DNA from: Streptomyces piniterrae
Lineage (GTDB): Bacteria; Actinomycetota; Actinomycetes; Streptomycetales; Streptomycetaceae
DNA length: 64,000 nucleotides
Direction of reading: 5' to 3'
NCBI RefSeq assembly: GCF_005048155.1
Contig: NZ_SUMB01000013.1
Coordinates: forward strand, 1 to 64,000
The notes under the pieces are model-generated. The model was not told where the DNA came from, made no database searches, and saw nothing but the letters and a program-made list of their open reading frames with translations. Made by a program: the position numbers and the translations under genes. Below, piece after piece: positions 1,178 to 14,302 of this stretch. Position 1 is the first letter of the stretch, and each line of letters begins with the position of its first letter.

Positions 1178-2848
1178 ATGGAGACAACGCTGCGAGGCGT
1201 CGGCGTGAGCCACGGTGTGGCCATAGGCGAGGTGCGGCACATGGGGACGGCGGTTCTGGAACCGCCGGCCAAGCAGATTCCGGCGGAAGAGGCGGAGCGC
1301 GAACAGGGGCGTGCCCGCCAGGCCGTGGAAGCGGTGGCAGCCGACCTGATCGCGCGGGGCAATCTGGCGGGCGGCGAGGCTCAGGCCGTGCTCGAGGCGC
1401 AGGCCATGATGGCTCAGGACCCCGAGCTGATGGCGGACGTCGAGCGTCGGATCGCGGTCGGCAGCACCGCCGAGCGCGGTGTGTACGACGCGTTCGCCGC
1501 CTATCGGGCGCTGCTGGCGGGTGCTGGTGAGTATCTCGCCGGGCGGGTCGCCGACCTCGATGATGTGCGGAATCGGATCGTCGCCCGGCTGTTGGGCGTG
1601 CCGATGCCGGGTGTGCCGGACAGCGACGAGCCGTATGTGCTGATCGCTCGCGATCTGGCGCCGGCGGACACGGCGCTGCTGGACCCGGCGCTGGTGCTCG
1701 GGTTCGTGACCGAGGAGGGCGGGCCGACCAGTCACAGCGCGATTCTCGCGCGGGCGCTGGGGGTGCCGGCCGTGGTCGCGCTGCCGGGTGCGGGTGAGCT
1801 GGTCGAGGGCACGGTGATCGCCGTCGACGGCAGCACCGGGGAGATCTTCGTCGAGCCGAGCGCCGAGAAGCGCGCGGAGATGGAGAAGGCCGCCGCGGAG
1901 CGGAAGGCCGCGCTGGCCGCGTCGTCCGGTCCTGGGGCCACGTCCGACGGGCACAAGGTGCCGCTGCTGGCGAACGTCGGCGGTCCCGGTGATGTGCCGG
2001 CCGCGGTCGAGGCGGGTGCGGAGGGTGTCGGTCTGTTCCGGACCGAGTTCCTGTTCCTGGATGACAGCCAGAAGGCGCCGTCCGAGGAGAAGCAGGTCGA
2101 GGCGTACCGGAAGGTGCTGGAGGCCTTTCCCGAGGGCCGGGTTGTCGTGCGGGTGCTCGACGCCGGTGCGGACAAGCCGCTGGACTTCCTGACGCCGGGT
2201 GACGAGCCGAACCCGGCGCTGGGCGTGCGGGGCCTGCGGACGCTGCTCGACCACCCCGATGTGCTGCGGACGCAGCTGACCGCGCTGGCCAAGGCGGCCG
2301 AGGGGCTGCCGGTCTACCTCGAGGTCATGGCCCCGATGGTGGCGGACCGGATCGACGCCAGGGCGTTCGCGGACGCCTGCCGGGATGCCGGGCTGCGGGC
2401 GAAGTTCGGGGCGATGGTGGAGATTCCGTCCGCGGCTCTCAGGGCGCGGTCGATTCTTCAGGAGGTCGAGTTCCTTTCTCTGGGGACGAACGACCTGGCG
2501 CAGTACACGTTCGCCGCCGACCGTCAGGTGGGTGCGGTGTCGCGGTTGCAGGATCCATGGCAGCCGGCGCTGCTGGATCTCGTGGCGGTTTCCGCCGAGG
2601 CCGCGAAGGCCGAGGGCAAGAGCTGTGGTGTGTGTGGTGAGGCGGCCTCCGATCCGCTGTTGGCCTGTGTGCTGACGGGGCTCGGTGTCACCAGCCTTTC
2701 GATGGGTGCGGCGTCGATTCCGTATGTGCGGGCGACGCTGGCCAAGCACACGCTGGCGCAGTGTGAGCGTGCGGCGGCCGCGGCGCGTGCCGCGGACACC
2801 GCCGACGATGCTCGGGCCGCCGCGCAGGCGGTGCTCTCCGGGGAGTGA
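1178..2848 (+). CDS. ptsI: PTS enzyme I (phosphoenolpyruvate-protein phosphotransferase)
   Basis: A 556-residue enzyme I, the first enzyme of the PTS, which moves phosphate from PEP to HPr in the cytoplasm. The protein begins METTLRGVGVSHGVAIGEV. The phosphohistidine lies in EEGGPTSHSAI near residue 186. The C-terminal PEP-binding barrel is marked by GLFRTEFLFLD and by CGVCGEAASDP near the end. I chose the ATG at 1178 because it gives the normal family N-terminus and follows CCGGAGACGGGTGAA; in-frame sequence further upstream is not enzyme I-like. A strong hairpin follows at 2882-2914. Confidence 0.96.
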   Translation: METTLRGVGVSHGVAIGEVRHMGTAVLEPPAKQIPAEEAEREQGRARQAVEAVAADLIARGNLAGGEAQAVLEAQAMMAQDPELMADVERRIAVGSTAERGVYDAFAAYRALLAGAGEYLAGRVADLDDVRNRIVARLLGVPMPGVPDSDEPYVLIARDLAPADTALLDPALVLGFVTEEGGPTSHSAILARALGVPAVVALPGAGELVEGTVIAVDGSTGEIFVEPSAEKRAEMEKAAAERKAALAASSGPGATSDGHKVPLLANVGGPGDVPAAVEAGAEGVGLFRTEFLFLDDSQKAPSEEKQVEAYRKVLEAFPEGRVVVRVLDAGADKPLDFLTPGDEPNPALGVRGLRTLLDHPDVLRTQLTALAKAAEGLPVYLEVMAPMVADRIDARAFADACRDAGLRAKFGAMVEIPSAALRARSILQEVEFLSLGTNDLAQYTFAADRQVGAVSRLQDPWQPALLDLVAVSAEAAKAEGKSCGVCGEAASDPLLACVLTGLGVTSLSMGAASIPYVRATLAKHTLAQCERAAAAARAADTADDARAAAQAVLSGE

Positions 2849-2881
2849 TCCCGTGCGGCGCGGTGCGTCGCAGGAGCCTTG

Positions 2882-2914
2882 ATGGCCGTCCCGCCCCCGT
2901 GGCGGGGCGGCCAT
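2882..2914. terminator. bidirectional terminator hairpin
   Basis: ATGGCCGTCCCGCC (2882-2895) pairs with GGCGGGGCGGCCAT (2901-2914). The 14-bp stem has one G-T wobble and a 5-nt loop. It lies between the convergent ptsI and the gene at 2940-3965. Confidence 0.8.
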
Positions 2915-2939
2915 CTGCCGTACGGGCGGGGGCGGTCCG

Positions 2940-3965
2940 TCAGTGGTGGCGGTGTCTGTCCGGCGGGGGTGTGAGGGTGAGGCCGGGGGCGTAGTCGACG
3001 CCGTGCTCGGGTGGGATGGGCTCGCCGGTGTCGGCGTCGGTGCAGTAGGCGGTGAAGACCTCGGCGGCGGTGAGCGGGCGGAGCCAGGAGTCCCGCAGGG
3101 CCCAGCCGCGGACGGTGTCGTGGGGGTGGGTGGCGTTGGTCGTGTCGGTGGCGTCGGCGTCGGGGGCCTTGGCGGTGGTGCGGGAGACGATGCCGCCTGG
3201 GGTGCGGAGGGCGAGGCCGGCGGCGAGGACGGTGCAGAAGACCAGGGTCCGGGACTCGGAGAGTTGGCGGCGGTCGGCGTCGTCGGCCGTAACGTGCAGG
3301 ACCGCCAGCAGGGATGGCTCGCGGGCGGGGATGCTGCAGACGAGGTGGTGGGTGCCGGCCCCGAGGGCTTCGAGGAGGCGTTGCAGTGCGTGGGTGGCGC
3401 GGGCGAAGGCGGCGGGTGCGAGGTCTTCGCCGCAGTCGGGGCAGGTGCCGGCGCGGGCCAGGAGCGCGGTGGCCTGGTCCCAGGTCGCCTGCCGGTCGGC
3501 TTCTTCGACGAGTAACGGCAGCAGTTCGGTGAGCGGCTCGCCCCCGTAGGGCAATGTCGCGCCGGTGCAGGCGAGTTCGGCGGTGTAGCGCGTACGGCTG
3601 TCGGGGCGGTCCGGGTCCAGGCCGAGGTCCGCGCAGTATTCCTCGTAGGCGGCCGGGTCGAAGAGGCTGAGGGTGGTGTGTACGCCCTGGGAGGCGAGGG
3701 TGCGCAGCAGGGTCTCCAGCTGCTGGAGGTAGCCGGCGTGGTCGTCGAACGGGAAGGTGGGGTAGCGGCGCATGGCCGCGAAGTCCCGCTCGTCGGCCAG
3801 GACGGCGGCGGTGCTGGGGACTTCGCGGCGCAGTTGGCGGCGGGCGGCGGACTGCTTGGTCCGCCGGGTGGGACGGTCGGGCGTGTGCCCGGATGCGTTC
3901 CGCGAGGTGTTGCGGGACGTGTTCCGGGCTGTGTTGCGGGATGTGTCTCTCGGTGTGGATGTCAT
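2940..3965 (-). CDS. conserved hypothetical protein with a TTA codon
   Basis: A 341-residue soluble protein I do not recognise. The N-terminus (residues 7-25) is a run of SRNT-like tetrapeptides followed by a basic stretch (RPTRRTK). The central part is mostly helical and contains CPDCGED near residue 175, half of a possible zinc-binding site with no obvious second CxxC. The C-terminus ends in RHRHH. Codon 151 (3515-3513) is TTA, the rare leucine codon read by the bldA tRNA in Streptomyces, so its synthesis may be tied to development. The start has AGGGGG four bases upstream. It is followed on the same strand, 83 nt upstream, by the end of the acetoacetyl-CoA synthetase gene. Confidence 0.75.
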   Translation of the reverse strand: MTSTPRDTSRNTARNTSRNTSRNASGHTPDRPTRRTKQSAARRQLRREVPSTAAVLADERDFAAMRRYPTFPFDDHAGYLQQLETLLRTLASQGVHTTLSLFDPAAYEEYCADLGLDPDRPDSRTRYTAELACTGATLPYGGEPLTELLPLLVEEADRQATWDQATALLARAGTCPDCGEDLAPAAFARATHALQRLLEALGAGTHHLVCSIPAREPSLLAVLHVTADDADRRQLSESRTLVFCTVLAAGLALRTPGGIVSRTTAKAPDADATDTTNATHPHDTVRGWALRDSWLRPLTAAEVFTAYCTDADTGEPIPPEHGVDYAPGLTLTPPPDRHRHH

Positions 3966-8941: not shown

Positions 8942-9754
8942 ATGCCGAGACTCGCTGCCGCGCTGCGCGGCCTCGCCGTCGCTGCCGCCGCCCTGCTGAC
9001 CGTCACCGCGCTGCCGTCCGGCGCGGGGGCCGGGACCGTTCACGGGCCGGCGCGCCACTCCCCCGCGCCCGGACTCCCGAAGGGGTTTGTCGCGCTGCGG
9101 GAGGTGGATCCCACGATCATCCAGGAGATGCGCTATTTCACGCCGCACAATTTCGTGGGCGTACCGGTGGACGGATATCTCAGACCGAAATGCATACTGA
9201 CCCGGGATGCCGCTCGGGCGCTGCACCGTGCCCAAGTGTCCTTTCTGCGGCGGGGATTCACGCTCAAGGTGTACGACTGCTATCGGCCGCAGCGTGCCGT
9301 GGACCATTTCGTGCGGTGGGCCGAGGATCTCGACGACGAGGCGATGAAGGCCGAGTTCTATCCGCGGGTGGCGAAGTCGAGGCTGTTCGAGGACGGCTAT
9401 ATCGCCGCCAAGTCGGGGCACAGCAGGGGCAGTACGCTCGATGTGACGCTGGTGCGGCTGCCCGCGCTGCCGACTCGCCCCTACGTCCCCGGCGAGCCGC
9501 TCACGCCTTGTTACGGGCCGCGGGCCGACCGCTTCCCGGACAACTCCCTTGACATGGGCACCGGTTTCGACTGTTTCGACACGCTCGCGCACACCCTCGA
9601 TCCGCGCATTCACGGGCGGCAGTTGAGGAACAGGCTGCTGCTCAAGCACGGGCTGGAGCGGGCCGGGTTCGTGAATCTCCCGGAGGAATGGTGGCACTAC
9701 ACCTTCAAGCCGGAGACCTTTCCCGACACCTATTTCGACTTTCCCGTGCGGTGA
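8942..9754 (+). CDS. secreted D-alanyl-D-alanine dipeptidase (VanX/DdpX family)
   Basis: A 270-residue zinc dipeptidase of the M15D family, which cleaves D-Ala-D-Ala. Residues 1-30 form a signal peptide (hydrophobic LAVAAAALLTVTALP, then Ala/Gly cleavage region), so it acts outside the membrane. Zinc and catalytic motifs are SGHSRGSTLDVTL (the SxHxxGxAxD pattern with S-T in place of the usual A) and EEWWHYTF. YDCYRPQRAVDHF is also typical. Because it is exported and alone, with no vanH/vanA homologue nearby, peptidoglycan turnover or D-Ala scavenging is more likely than glycopeptide resistance. Its last 50 bp overlap the 3' end of the convergent PurA-like gene. Confidence 0.9.
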   Translation: MPRLAAALRGLAVAAAALLTVTALPSGAGAGTVHGPARHSPAPGLPKGFVALREVDPTIIQEMRYFTPHNFVGVPVDGYLRPKCILTRDAARALHRAQVSFLRRGFTLKVYDCYRPQRAVDHFVRWAEDLDDEAMKAEFYPRVAKSRLFEDGYIAAKSGHSRGSTLDVTLVRLPALPTRPYVPGEPLTPCYGPRADRFPDNSLDMGTGFDCFDTLAHTLDPRIHGRQLRNRLLLKHGLERAGFVNLPEEWWHYTFKPETFPDTYFDFPVR

Positions 9755-11012
9755 TTTTGTCGGCCGCCGTGGGCCCGTACGACTCCATGACGACCGGGGC
9801 GTCCAGGGTGTGCGCGAGGGCGTCGCACCAGGCGTGCGGGTCGGCACCCGGGGACCGCCAACGGGTGGGCCGGGCGGCCGACAGCCGTTCGGTGAGCCGT
9901 TGTTGGCGTGCCAGGTCGCCGGGCGGCGCGGTGGGGATGCGGTCCAGGAGGCCGGTGGGCGTGCGGTAGGCGTGGGCCATCCGCAGGGCGCCTCCGGTGC
10001 GGGCAGGGGCGTCGAGATGGGTGACGGCGAGGGCGTCCACTCCGCCGCAGACCTCGACGGCGTAGGTGTGCGCGACGGCGTCGAAGTGGCCGGCGCGGAA
10101 GGCGCCCTGCCAGCGGCCGTTGCCGTTGTGGGCCTCGGGGAGGGCGTCCGGCAGCGCGGGGTCCTCGGTGACCAGCGGGCCCGGTCCGTGCCGGGTGGTG
10201 TAGGTCCGTACGACGCCCAGCCGCCGGGCCGCGCGCGGCTGCCCGGCCTCGGCGAGCAGTTCCTCCGCGCCCGCGAAGGTGGTCGTCGACCAGGTCGTGT
10301 AGGGGTGGAAGCCGTGCCATTCGTCGAGGAGTACGCCCTGGGCGCCCTCGAAGACGACCGGGCCGGTGCGCAGCAGCCGCGCCAGGTGGTCGCCGTCGAC
10401 GAGCCGTACGTGAGCGGCGAACGCGGCGAAGGCGTCCAGGCAGGCCTCGACGGGCGGGGCGTCGAGCGGGCCGAGTTCCTCGGTCAACCGGTCGCGGAGC
10501 AGGGCGAGTTTGCGGCGCAGTGTCGTACGGGAGGTGCAGTCGCCCGCGGTGGGCGCGTCGGCGGGGTGGGCCAGGGCGTAGGCGGCGGTTTCGCCGATGC
10601 CCATGCCGCAGGAGCCGTGCCGGGCGGTGCCGCGGGCCTGCTCGCGGGCCCGGTTGGCGGCCGCGTGGTAGGGGGTGGTGAGCCGGGCGCGCCGGTCGAC
10701 GGTCAGCAGGGCGAGCGGGTTCGCCGAGCCGAGGGAGGCGAGGTGGCGGGCCTCGGCGGCGAGCGCGAGGGGGTCCACCAGCATCAGGCGGGAGAGGTGG
10801 GTGGGGACGCCGCTGAAGGTGCCGGAGCCGAACTGGGCGAAGGTGTGGTGGCGTCCGTCGGTGGTGACGACGTTGTGGGCGGCCTGGGCGCCGCCGTTGA
10901 AGCGGACCACCGCCGCGACCGGCGCCGCGCCCGGTGAGGGGACGCAGAGCCGGTCGACGACGGTGCCCTTGCCGGCGTCGCCGTAGCCGAGGTCGACGAC
11001 GATGGTGTGCAC
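9705..11012 (-). CDS. divergent adenylosuccinate synthetase paralogue (PurA-like)
   Basis: A 435-residue homologue of adenylosuccinate synthetase, which normally joins IMP and L-aspartate using GTP. The fold is clear: DLGYGDAGKG at the N-terminus keeps the catalytic Asp (D12) and P-loop Lys (K15). RFNGGAQAAHNVV keeps the catalytic His (H46). FEGAQGVLLDEWHG and RTYTTRHGPGPLVTE match conserved blocks. It departs from true PurA in the P-loop (GDEGKGK becomes GDAGKGT). It also departs in the loop that binds L-aspartate, where TGRxRRxGWxD becomes NGRWQGAFRAGHFD near residues 293-310. It is therefore unlikely to be the housekeeping enzyme. Start GTG follows GGGGAAGG by 8 nt. It is the last gene of a four-gene operon, 26 nt after the VWA gene. 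Confidence 0.82.
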   Translation of the reverse strand: MHTIVVDLGYGDAGKGTVVDRLCVPSPGAAPVAAVVRFNGGAQAAHNVVTTDGRHHTFAQFGSGTFSGVPTHLSRLMLVDPLALAAEARHLASLGSANPLALLTVDRRARLTTPYHAAANRAREQARGTARHGSCGMGIGETAAYALAHPADAPTAGDCTSRTTLRRKLALLRDRLTEELGPLDAPPVEACLDAFAAFAAHVRLVDGDHLARLLRTGPVVFEGAQGVLLDEWHGFHPYTTWSTTTFAGAEELLAEAGQPRAARRLGVVRTYTTRHGPGPLVTEDPALPDALPEAHNGNGRWQGAFRAGHFDAVAHTYAVEVCGGVDALAVTHLDAPARTGGALRMAHAYRTPTGLLDRIPTAPPGDLARQQRLTERLSAARPTRWRSPGADPHAWCDALAHTLDAPVVMESYGPTAADKITARESRNRCRERSPA

Positions 11013-11038
11013 GGGAGGAACCTTCCCCTTGAGGCCGG

Positions 11039-12037
11039 TCAGAGGCGGGTGGTGGCGCCGGGACCGGTCTCGCCGGCGGGGTCGATCAGCGGGGCCGTGG
11101 ACCGCGCGACGGTGCCGCGGCCACGGTTGAGGGTGGCCAGTGCCTTGCCGACGGTGTCGCCCGCGTCGGAGCCGATGTCGGCGAGGTCGTCGAGGCCGGC
11201 GGCGAGGTCGATGGCCTCCTCGCCGAGGCCGATGGTCAGCGCGATGGTCTCGCAGACCGCGCCGAGGTCGTCGAGTTCGATGACGTTCTGGCCGAGCAGC
11301 TTGCGCCAGGTGCCCAGGACGGAGGCGTTGCCGACGTGGGCGGCGCCGGCCGGGACGAGGAAGTAGACATCGAACTTCTGGCGTACTTCGGCGAGGATCG
11401 TGGCGAGGGGAATGTCCTCGTGGACGTCGTCGCCGAACACCGCCCGGATCTCGCGGGCCTTGACCTTGCCGTACGGCATCTCGTCGCCGATGAGGAAGAG
11501 GTAGCCGCGGCGGCCGCGCTTCTCGTGGCAGTCGAGGCTGGTGTGGCGGGCCATGGCGTAGAGGGCGAGCTCGTACGACTCGGTCATCTGGCCGCCGCCT
11601 CCGCCCTCCAGGAGGATGTTGCCGAGGTCGTCGTCCATGCGGTTGTCGGACTCGAACTGGCCGAGCTGGAGCGGGACCCGGTCGCAGGTGGCGTCGCCGA
11701 CGGCGCCGAAGAGGATCTGCGGGTGCTCGACATATCCCTTGCGCAGCAGCAGGCCGAACAGCTCGGGGAGCTTGGTCTGCAGGACGCGCGGCACGGACCG
11801 CATGGATCCGGTCACATCGAAGATGACCGAGACGGCCAGCGAGGTGGGGTGTTCGTCCGAGTCGCGGCTCTCGCGGGTCGTCAGGCCCTCGGGGTCCAGC
11901 GAGGGGTGCGCCGTCCAGGTGTGGCGCGGGGCCGTGGCGGTGACGCGATCGCTGTAGTCGAAGGCGCTGGCGCCGGAGGCGGCGCGGTAGCTCGCCGCGG
12001 CGCCGTAGACGTTGGTGGACCAGGTTCCGCTGCCCAT
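11039..12037 (-). CDS. VWA-domain protein
   Basis: A 332-residue cytoplasmic protein with one von Willebrand A domain. The MIDAS metal site is visible as IFDVTGSM (D74, T76, S78), with the threonine in GGQMTESYELALY and the aspartate in FLIGDEMPYG completing it. Residues 1-65 are polar and probably flexible. The C-terminus after about residue 270 is low-complexity. VWA proteins are metal-dependent interaction modules, and TerY-type VWA proteins are often encoded beside kinases in stress or conflict operons. Here the upstream neighbour (83 nt) is the J-domain/pseudokinase gene. The start ATG has GGGGGA six bases upstream. Confidence 0.85.
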   Translation of the reverse strand: MGSGTWSTNVYGAAASYRAASGASAFDYSDRVTATAPRHTWTAHPSLDPEGLTTRESRDSDEHPTSLAVSVIFDVTGSMRSVPRVLQTKLPELFGLLLRKGYVEHPQILFGAVGDATCDRVPLQLGQFESDNRMDDDLGNILLEGGGGGQMTESYELALYAMARHTSLDCHEKRGRRGYLFLIGDEMPYGKVKAREIRAVFGDDVHEDIPLATILAEVRQKFDVYFLVPAGAAHVGNASVLGTWRKLLGQNVIELDDLGAVCETIALTIGLGEEAIDLAAGLDDLADIGSDAGDTVGKALATLNRGRGTVARSTAPLIDPAGETGPGATTRL

Positions 12038-12120
12038 GGTGAATCCCCCTGATGCGTTGAGTGGTTGCGTGCGTGAAGGTGGTTGCGTGTGTGAGTGGTG
12101 TACGGCGGAGGTGCGGCGGC

Positions 12121-13203
12121 TCACTGGTGCCGGGCCGGCTCCGGCATCGTGAACGGGCGGAAGGTGCGCGGCCCGTAGAGGCGGTCGAGGAGCGCGTCCA
12201 GCTCGGCCAGCAGCCGCCAGGCGTCGTGCGGCCGGCGGGCCTCGGCGGGAAGGGTGCAGCCGCGCAGGAAGGCCCGCATCGGCTTCGGCGTGCGCTCCCC
12301 CATGAGGGCCCCCATGGTGCGGGAGGCGAGGTGGATGTCGGTGGCCTCGGTCGCCGGTCGGCGCCCTGTGACCTCGGGCGGATAGCTGTCGCGGTGGCGT
12401 TCGACGAGGGCGGGCACGTGCTCACCGGCGCCGACGGGGGTGCTGTAGCACCAGTCGACGAGGACCAGGCCGTGCTTCTCCGGGTGGATGAGGAGGTGGT
12501 CGGGGAGGACGGCGCCGTGCACCCGGCCCGCACGGTGCGCCCAGCCGAGGGCGACCAGGAGCCGGCGCCACATCCAGGCGGCGTCGCGCGGGTCGAGTCC
12601 GTCGGGGTGGGCGGCGCGGACCTCGGTGAGGGTTCGGAAGCCGTCGAGGGGGACGAGGGCGTTGACGCGGCGTTCTACGCCGGTGTCCGGATCGCGGTGC
12701 CGGAAGGATTCCAGCAGGCGGGGCGCGTAGCCGCGGTGGCGTGGCTCGCCGCGCCGCGCCAGGCGGGACAGCGCCTCCGCCTCGCGTTCCATGAGGTCGT
12801 TGTCGGTCACCGCGCGCGGGATCTTCAGCAGCGCGTGGTGCCGGGTGCCGTCCTGCTCGTACGTGGCCTCGCGGAGTACGGCGAGGTCGCCGGTGGCCCG
12901 GGTGGCGCCGAGGCTGTAGGTGTGGCGGCGGGTGGTGAGGGTCGGGCGGGTGGCGTCGGTCCGGCGCTGCCAGAGGGCGTTGAGGCGGGCGAACTCGTCC
13001 TGGGCGGCGGGGCGTTCGGTGGCGGTGGCGGCGTCGGGGTGCAGCAGGCGGGCGAGCCTGCGGTAGACGCGGGCGGCCTCGGCGTCGTCGGTGGGGAAGA
13101 GGTCGGCGGGCCGGCGGGCGGCGGCCAGCGCGGCGCGGGCGTCGGCGGGTGTGTCGGCCGTACGGGGGCTCCCCTCGGCAACCTCCCCGCTCCCCCGGCT
13201 CAT
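12121..13203 (-). CDS. J-domain-like / protein-kinase-like fusion (probable pseudokinase)
   Basis: A 360-residue cytoplasmic protein. Residues 34-75 resemble a DnaJ domain, with RVYRRLARLLHPD carrying the HPD motif (55-57). Residues 90-350 look like a protein kinase fold. YSLGATRATGDLAVLREA fits the nucleotide loop, ALLKIPR supplies the beta-3 lysine, and HRAGRVHGAVLPDHLLIH sits where HRDxKxxN should be. LVDW replaces DFG. The catalytic-loop aspartate and the DFG motif are thus altered, suggesting weak or no kinase activity. Its ATG overlaps the stop of the upstream Nudix gene by 4 bp, so the two are translationally coupled. The VWA gene follows 83 nt downstream. Confidence 0.72.
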   Translation of the reverse strand: MSRGSGEVAEGSPRTADTPADARAALAAARRPADLFPTDDAEAARVYRRLARLLHPDAATATERPAAQDEFARLNALWQRRTDATRPTLTTRRHTYSLGATRATGDLAVLREATYEQDGTRHHALLKIPRAVTDNDLMEREAEALSRLARRGEPRHRGYAPRLLESFRHRDPDTGVERRVNALVPLDGFRTLTEVRAAHPDGLDPRDAAWMWRRLLVALGWAHRAGRVHGAVLPDHLLIHPEKHGLVLVDWCYSTPVGAGEHVPALVERHRDSYPPEVTGRRPATEATDIHLASRTMGALMGERTPKPMRAFLRGCTLPAEARRPHDAWRLLAELDALLDRLYGPRTFRPFTMPEPARHQ

Positions 13204-14219
13204 CGGACGCTGTCCTCACGGTCCGGGCGGAGCAGTGCCGGGTGCAGCAGGCGGGCGTCGCCCGCGCGGTAGAGGCGGGCGCGTGGGCCTCCTCGGGCTC
13301 CCCCGCGGGCGGCGGTGGCGCCGGTGGATTCGACGAACCCGGGGACGGAGAGCACCTTGCGGTGGAAGTTCCCGGCGTGCAGCGGGCTGCCCCAGACGGC
13401 TTCGTAGACGCCGCGGAGTTCGACGATGGTGAACTCGGCGCCGAGGAAGGCGGTGGCCAGCGGGGTGTACTCGATCTTCGCGCGGGCGCGGTCGAGGCCG
13501 TCGGCGACGATCCTGGCGTGGTCGAAGGCGAGCCGGGCCCTCACCGTCTCCGGGAGCGGGGTCTGCGTTGTCTCCGGGGCGGTTGCGGCCGCAGAGCCCA
13601 CCGCGGCGGGGTCTGCGGGCCGGGGCACGGAACCACCCCCGTCGGTCCCGTGCCCCGGGCCCTGCTCTGGTGGACGCGGGCGGGCCGCGTCCGGTTCGGT
13701 GAAACTTTGACCAGTCCGACGAGCCTGCCGCGTTCGAGAAGCCGCAGGGTGCCCGGCGCCGAGATCCAGATCGGCGACCGGGACCCAGGCCGCCGCCGAG
13801 GCGTCGCCGCCGCCGCGCGCCTCGGGGAGGTCGGGGGCGAAGGCGAGATAGGCGACGGTGACGACGGGCATCCGCGGGTCGCGCCCTGGGTCGCCGTACG
13901 AGCCGAGCTGTTCGAGGTGGACGCGGTCCAGCTGGGCGGCGTCCAGCCCGGTCTCCTCGGCGAGTTCGCGGGCGGCGGCCTCGTCCAGCGATTCCCGCCC
14001 GGCCCGCACGAAGCCGCCGGGCAGCGCCCAGGCGCCCTGGAAGGGCCGGCCGCCGCGCTCCACGAGCAGGACGTGCAGGGCGCCTTGACGGAGTGTCAGC
14101 GCGACGATGTCGACGGTCACGGCGATGGCGGGGAAGTCACGCGGGTCGTAGGCCGCGAGGAATGCGCGCTCCGCGTCGTCCTCGGCGCCGCTGCCACCGC
14201 GCTCCCGGTCCCCGTCCAT
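13200..14219 (-). CDS. Nudix-fold / winged-helix transcriptional regulator (NrtR-like)
   Basis: A 339-residue protein with an N-terminal Nudix domain (about 28-165) and a C-terminal winged helix (about 265-335, including FTIVELRGVYEAVWGSPLH and NFHRKVLSV). This is the NrtR architecture: the Nudix fold senses an ADP-ribose-type or other nucleotide ligand and the winged helix binds DNA. The Nudix box (68-92) keeps REL, EE and GL, but the first G-to-E spacing is one residue too long, as expected for sensors rather than hydrolases. A 75-residue Pro/Gly/Ala-rich linker separates the domains. An upstream GTG at 14228 is an alternative start. The promoter carries two tandem palindromes likely to be its own operator. 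First gene of the operon running to 9705. Confidence 0.78.
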   Translation of the reverse strand: MDGDRERGGSGAEDDAERAFLAAYDPRDFPAIAVTVDIVALTLRQGALHVLLVERGGRPFQGAWALPGGFVRAGRESLDEAAARELAEETGLDAAQLDRVHLEQLGSYGDPGRDPRMPVVTVAYLAFAPDLPEARGGGDASAAAWVPVADLDLGAGHPAASRTRQARRTGQSFTEPDAARPRPPEQGPGHGTDGGGSVPRPADPAAVGSAAATAPETTQTPLPETVRARLAFDHARIVADGLDRARAKIEYTPLATAFLGAEFTIVELRGVYEAVWGSPLHAGNFHRKVLSVPGFVESTGATAARGGARGGPRARLYRAGDARLLHPALLRPDREDSVR

Positions 14220-14241
14220 GACCCTCACCCCGGTCTCGTCA

Positions 14242-14302
14242 TTCTCACTTTGAGTCTTTCTCGGAACGAGAACAACATAACACCGCGCACCGACGGCGTC
14301 CA
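14242..14302 (-). promoter_or_regulatory. promoter of the Nudix-J-VWA-PurA operon with two tandem operators
   Basis: On the minus strand TGGACG (14302-14297) and TATGTT (14279-14274) are spaced by 17 nt, a good housekeeping-type promoter. The predicted start, near 14267, falls in a perfect 15-bp palindrome TTCTCG-GAA-CGAGAA (14258-14272). It is followed by a second, imperfect copy TTCTCA-CTT-TGAGTC (14242-14256) centred 16 bp away. This layout is typical of repression, most simply by the encoded Nudix regulator. Confidence 0.62.

Follow-up and report, generated by a model that had tools for sequence, protein, structure and literature searches.

A conserved actinobacterial operon joining an NrtR-type regulator to a PurA-like ligase, a VWA protein and a predicted J-domain pseudokinase, with relatives in phages and plasmids

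We describe here an operon of Streptomyces piniterrae, located in the first 64,000 nucleotides of contig NZ_SUMB01000013.1 (assembly GCF_005048155.1; this whole stretch is referred to as the window), which encodes an NrtR-type regulator, a protein with a J-domain and a protein-kinase-like domain, a VWA protein and a PurA-like ligase. The four genes are conserved together in actinobacteria and share an upstream operator motif, copies of the module occur in phages and plasmids, and the PurA-like protein retains intact PurA catalytic residues next to a replaced acceptor loop. We give about an even chance to the overall interpretation, in which a phage-borne module, later domesticated by bacteria, encodes a purine ligase that depends on GTP, uses a new acceptor and is linked to NAD/ADP-ribose metabolism. 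A previous sequence-only reading, which described four bacterial genes, had the unit right and missed its sharing with phages and plasmids, the replaced PurA loop, the operator and the NAD-salvage neighbours in phages. The elements of the operon are the following:

9705..11012, minus strand: PurA-like ligase (Pfam Adenylsucc_synt, 1.9e-55)
11039..12037, minus strand: VWA protein with an intact metal-ion-dependent adhesion site (MIDAS; DVTGS ... GDE) and an invariant EGGGGGQ-ESYEL motif (AlphaFold2 model and Foldseek)
12121..13203, minus strand: J-domain (HPD) with a protein-kinase-like domain, predicted pseudokinase (DnaJ, 2.4e-4; PHROG 3043)
13200..14219, minus strand: NrtR-type regulator, Nudix domain with C-terminal NrtR winged helix (Pfam NUDIX, NrtR_WHD)
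14242..14272, minus strand: candidate operator TTCTC-N5-GAGAA-N2-ACTC-N4-TGAGAA, with core CTC-N5-GAG-N5-CTC-N5-GAG (alignment of upstream regions)

A check of the open reading frames together with domain searches recovered the four genes in the order and on the single strand given by the sequence-only reading, and its junctions were exact: a 4-bp ATGA overlap (13200-13203), 83 bp (12038-12120) and 26 bp (11013-11038). That reading had the unit span 9705-14302, where the genes and junctions hold and the regulator start at 14302 does not, being out of the Nudix frame. In the family alignment the conserved N-terminus of the regulator begins at about residue 83 of the open frame, which points to the ATG at 14219, with GGTGAG as ribosome-binding site, as the most likely start. 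Positions 14220-14290 are likely a promoter and operator stretch.

A scan of GTDB with one genome per species returned 380 VWA relatives, from which the best 80 were kept and one further locus was added, giving 81 actinobacterial loci. We found the NrtR, J-domain/pseudokinase, VWA and PurA-like genes in the same order and on one strand in 68 of these 81, in Streptomycetaceae, Frankiaceae, Micromonosporaceae, Nocardiopsidaceae, Thermomonosporaceae, Streptosporangiaceae and others, a conservation of order and strand far beyond chance. The NrtR and J-kinase genes overlap by exactly 4 bp in 50/69 loci, and the VWA and PurA-like genes by 1 or 4 bp in 48/80. The J-pseudokinase is absent from 8 loci, the remaining incomplete ones being mostly at contig ends, and therefore it is not essential: the bacterial core is NrtR-VWA-PurA, to which the J-pseudokinase is a usual, dispensable addition. 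No fifth gene recurs in the flanks of the actinobacterial loci beyond lineage synteny. The claim that the four genes form a unit is thus borne out by their being kept together across actinobacterial families and, with a divergent regulator, on alphaproteobacterial plasmids. The distribution is patchy, as a profile search detected the VWA protein in 35 of 361 good genomes of the class. This result and the 380 GTDB relatives overturned a near-uniqueness of the VWA protein that single-protein searches at genus and phylum level had suggested (the single-sequence search gave 1/394 genomes of the genus).

Since these loci were drawn by their VWA gene, the converse linkage was tested separately in viral contigs searched by PurA alone, taking as module-type those PurAs without the TTGR loop and counting near-duplicate contigs. 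A VWA gene was found no farther than 8 kb from 66 of the 71 module-type viral PurAs, the other five being less than 2 kb from a contig end, against none of the nine viral PurAs with the canonical loop. Therefore, the altered PurA and the VWA protein are in effect an obligate pair. VWA relatives were present in 208 of 50,697 phage records, mainly from Mycobacterium cluster C (189), Rhizobium (10) and Vibrio (6), and a PurA query in cultured phages gave the same counts for the three groups. In viral metagenome contigs, 47 loci were recovered by a VWA scan; almost all include PurA and the majority also the J-pseudokinase. The kinase-VWA-PurA core is carried by Mycobacterium cluster C phages, by many large metagenomic phages and by several plasmids; phage Ghost has, in this order, the kinase gp260, VWA gp261, a small protein gp262 and a 'PurA-like' gp263, and PHROGs holds kinase, VWA and PurA-like proteins as three separate families. 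In the Rhizobium and Vibrio phages that were read, the VWA gene stands next to PurA, with no J-kinase detected. On the A. vitis, Acetobacter, Rhodovulum and R. leguminosarum plasmids NrtR is oriented divergently from the J-kinase and VWA genes, which are accompanied by PurA everywhere but in Rhodovulum; the plasmids of Rhodococcus and Tsukamurella have a plain Nudix gene after PurA. A terminase PHROG was found in 14 of the 39 records searched (known phage Ghost among them), and therefore some of the metagenome contigs may not be phages. Terminase_6N was discarded as a viral marker for being too insensitive (4/24). As a separate observation, the VWA match of Quasimodo, CharlieB and similar cluster C phages falls in two pieces over a span about 0.75 kb longer than in Ghost, and the split gene is annotated in some of them as 'HNH endonuclease', a homing intron or intein being probable.

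The PurA-like protein stays below the NCBIfam cut-offs for canonical PurA and for PurZ: its scores are 108 and 141 bits against canonical PurA cut-offs of 395 and 402 (purA itself, 108 against 395), and 32.8 bits against a cut-off of 300 for PurZ. Its model (predicted local distance difference test, pLDDT, 85.7) superposes on E. coli PurA structures with template modelling scores of 0.77-0.81. The roles of the residues compared here come from established PurA biochemistry. Among 123 family sequences the equivalents of His41 and Lys16 are present in all, that of Asp13 in 122 with one gap, and the GTP-base Asp333 is nearly invariant; Asn38 is changed to Gln and Thr129 mostly to Cys. The loop that binds L-aspartate, TTGRxRR, is replaced family-wide by xWQGxFR (N-x5-WQG-x-FR-x-G), the equivalents of Thr301, Arg303 and Arg305 being replaced in all bacterial and nearly all phage copies, with the next Arg kept. 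The preservation of the catalytic residues together with the replacement of this loop suggests that activation of a 6-oxopurine by GTP is likely kept and that free aspartate is an unlikely acceptor.

Two other explanations have to be confronted with these data. An ordinary stress-inducible adenylosuccinate synthetase isozyme placed among unrelated neighbours would account for the clear PurA homology and the intact catalytic residues; it is very unlikely given that the aspartate loop is replaced throughout the family, that coupling to VWA is kept over large evolutionary distances, and that this genome has its canonical purA at another site (G000:C9), in agreement with the earlier description of the protein as a PurA paralogue. 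An enzyme like phage PurZ, which would supply phage DNA with a modified purine deoxynucleotide, fits the PurA fold, the presence in phages and the label of PHROG 1211 (which matches 9705-11012), '2-aminooxy adenylosuccinate synthetase'. The module shares with PurA and PurZ the fold, the P-loop, the catalytic Asp and His and the GTP-base Asp, and differs from both in the xWQGxFR loop, in the Gln and Cys substitutions and in its VWA linkage. Against a PurZ-like role stand also the PurZ score far under its cut-off, the best structural matches to PurA with weaker ones to PurZ/DgsS, and the copies on bacterial chromosomes under NrtR control; to our knowledge, neither VWA proteins nor pseudokinases have a role in base-modification pathways. 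We consider this explanation most improbable. Because the aspartate loop is replaced in module members, the PHROG 1211 label is itself doubtful for them.

The VWA protein gave no Pfam, NCBIfam or PDB sequence match. Its AlphaFold2 model (pLDDT 85.2) has integrin I/VWA domains as best Foldseek matches, with probability 1.00, and both the MIDAS residues DVTGS and GDE (a DxT/SxS ... D metal site) and the EGGGGG-ESYEL motif are nearly invariant across the family, which upholds the assignment as a VWA protein with a MIDAS. It matches PHROG 2971, of unknown function (1.1e-74). The neighbouring protein had been noted as an unusual chaperone-kinase fusion. Its J-domain match is under the Pfam cut-off, with the HPD motif present, near-invariant in actinobacteria and lost in some phage copies. 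In the kinase-like domain, which matches PHROG 3043 'kinase' (3.4e-50), the beta3 Lys is kept and the DFG-type Asp mostly kept, while HRD is HGA in the window protein and HGA or HGS in the bacterial copies and nearly every phage copy; by motif it is a predicted pseudokinase. The coupling of two partners of protein-binding type to the PurA-like enzyme, along with a free-aspartate loop lost family-wide and an activation chemistry retained, would suit a protein-modifying ligase, one that attaches a purine nucleotide to a side chain on a target protein presented by VWA and J-pseudokinase. We regard this as unlikely, since the new loop could equally suit another small amine, and we know of no precedent for protein modification in the PurA family.

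The regulator combines a Nudix domain (E=1.1e-21) with the NrtR winged helix (2e-10; 41 bits, cut-off 27), the architecture of NrtR, and scores 112.7 bits with the NCBIfam NtrR model, under its cut-off of 400. Upstream of it, all 12 bases of the operator core are present in 61 of 75 aligned regions and 11 of 12 in another 10, so that at least 11 core bases occur in 71/75 regions versus 0.3% of shuffles. A scan with the sigma-70 consensus found no promoter; the alignment revealed a -10-like box, TATGTT or TAAGTT (TATGTT in the window), with the operator directly 3' of it. The operator is single-copy in the 8.5-Mb genome with up to 3 mismatches allowed, and this genome has no NAD gene under it. 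Lying upstream of the regulator and occurring once in this genome, the operator makes the regulator look like a dedicated autorepressor; a second NrtR-type gene is found elsewhere in the genome. At phage and plasmid copies the operator was not found with confidence, the best matches over whole loci being 9-10/12. NrtR of M. smegmatis is likewise an autorepressor, released from DNA by ADP-ribose (PMC6800001), and by analogy an ADP-ribose-type ligand may be proposed here. The resemblance to NrtR regulators of NAD metabolism extends to the Nudix and winged-helix architecture and to the site at the own promoter; here, in contrast, there is a single target, and the operator differs from the GTTTTCGA-N7-TCGAAAAC box of M. 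smegmatis (PMC6800001).

Genes of NAD metabolism also accompany the module in phages. Among 71 viral loci, 12 (some of which are related to each other) have NAMPT, of NAD salvage, no more than 8 kb from the module, and NrtR is also present in six of the 12; in locus L156 the genes run VWA, NMNAT/Nudix-type gene, NAMPT, PurA and J-kinase. When 39 records were searched whole, NAMPT scored over its cut-off in six and was near the module in four, a proximity expected under random placement with P ~6e-5 (9e-4 with two related records merged). In Rhizobium phage RHph_TM40 (L190 1806-4142), HAD hydrolase, PRTase_3 and Nudix genes stand a few kb upstream of VWA-PurA, a set reminiscent of Ter-type nucleoside modules. 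These neighbours support an NAD/purine context and not a specific reaction.

They would also be compatible with a role in phage-host conflict, in which the module would act in phages as counter-defence against NAD+-depleting immunity and in bacteria as an antiviral or damage response induced by ADP-ribose, restoring or detoxifying purine or ADP-ribose species. In several large phages the module has NAMPT, NMNAT/Nudix and NrtR genes as neighbours, which points in this direction, as do the likeness of the kinase domain to the defence kinases MkoA (3.3e-8) and MAD6, and the related theme of ADP-ribosylglycohydrolase (ARG) systems with Nudix-HTH (helix-turn-helix) regulators and vWA proteins (PMC9503650). 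However, no defence genes recur near the actinobacterial copies, whose shared flanks are lineage synteny, PADLOC gave no match for VWA or PurA, and the VWA protein is strongly conserved (62% mean column identity), unlike fast-evolving defence genes. We consider this role possible and rather doubtful.

When the PurA tree is rooted on canonical PurA, the module sequences all fall on one side with support of 100, and 30 chromosomal actinobacterial sequences lie inside viral diversity; constraining them to a single clade was not rejected (approximately unbiased test, p 0.987). The VWA tree, rooted at its midpoint, agrees, long branches limiting the detail of the trees. The simplest reading of these trees is that a phage module was captured by actinobacteria and then descended mostly vertically.

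The operon would therefore be the chromosomal, NrtR-controlled form of a module whose core is the PurA-like/VWA pair, usually with the J-domain pseudokinase. NrtR bound to its operator over the transcription start may silence the operon as long as its Nudix domain is free of an ADP-ribose-type ligand, whose presence would indicate NAD+ breakdown. Like PurA, the PurA-like enzyme would phosphorylate a purine nucleotide at its 6-oxo group with GTP, and would couple it to an acceptor other than free L-aspartate; the MIDAS VWA protein and the pseudokinase may bind, position or chaperone the enzyme or the acceptor, probably in one complex. In large phages the module might manage purine and NAD nucleotides during infection, and actinobacteria would have adopted it as a regulated nucleotide-stress operon. 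In this sense the set may serve, as the sequence-only reading suggested, in making or sensing a purine derivative. Several points weigh against this interpretation: the ligand is deduced from relatives with differing operators, only a minority of the phage loci, several of them related, show the NAMPT link, the NAD connection could come from a tendency of nucleotide genes to cluster in large phages, and the J-pseudokinase can be missing. A bolder version, an undescribed nucleotide-ligase complex shared by viruses and hosts, with a PurA-derived GTP-dependent enzyme, a non-aspartate acceptor that is possibly a protein held by VWA/J-pseudokinase, and induction by NAD+ breakdown, the complex being used on both sides of phage-host conflict, is put forward only tentatively.

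Among described systems, ARG-centred ones are predicted to combine Nudix-HTH regulators and vWA proteins (PMC9503650). As in them, a Nudix-HTH one-component regulator (here with NUDIX and NrtR_WHD matches, where theirs are Nudix- or WYL-HTH) and a vWA protein share one operon with an ADP-ribose theme; unlike them, the operon has a PurA-like ligase and a J-pseudokinase on a phage-borne core, none of its four genes is an ARG in Pfam and NCBIfam searches, and no ARG, phosphatase, SseB or TY-chaperone gene was found conserved at it. Ter-associated modules, as far as summarized in PMC7824862, pair VWA with a kinase and include a HAD/PRTase nucleoside module. The likeness lies in VWA with a kinase-like protein and in the Rhizobium phage copy near HAD and PRTase_3 genes; here the VWA family is distinct, a PurA-like enzyme is present and no TerD, TerC or TerB gene was seen. 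At system level the four-gene set fits no known family among those tested, and no described system of exactly this composition, which the earlier reading also could not name, was found in the open-access literature, of which coverage was partial.

In about 200 cultured phages, genes that carry the separate annotations 'hypothetical', 'kinase' and 'adenylosuccinate synthetase' make up a single conserved unit. The pocket of its enzyme is rebuilt, its bacterial counterpart has an NAD-type regulator, and a new PurA-family reaction may come with its function. Cluster C mycobacteriophages grow on a standard laboratory host, and therefore this function is directly testable.

Another divergent PurA homologue, at about 1602-3185 of locus L026 (G028:C918), stands by eye near GHMP-kinase-like, NMT1/THI5-like and anthranilate-synthase-like genes; it was set aside as belonging to another type of locus, perhaps a small-molecule cluster. 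In the window, the convergent neighbour of the operon (8942-9754, plus strand) is by eye a candidate VanX-type D-Ala-D-Ala dipeptidase.

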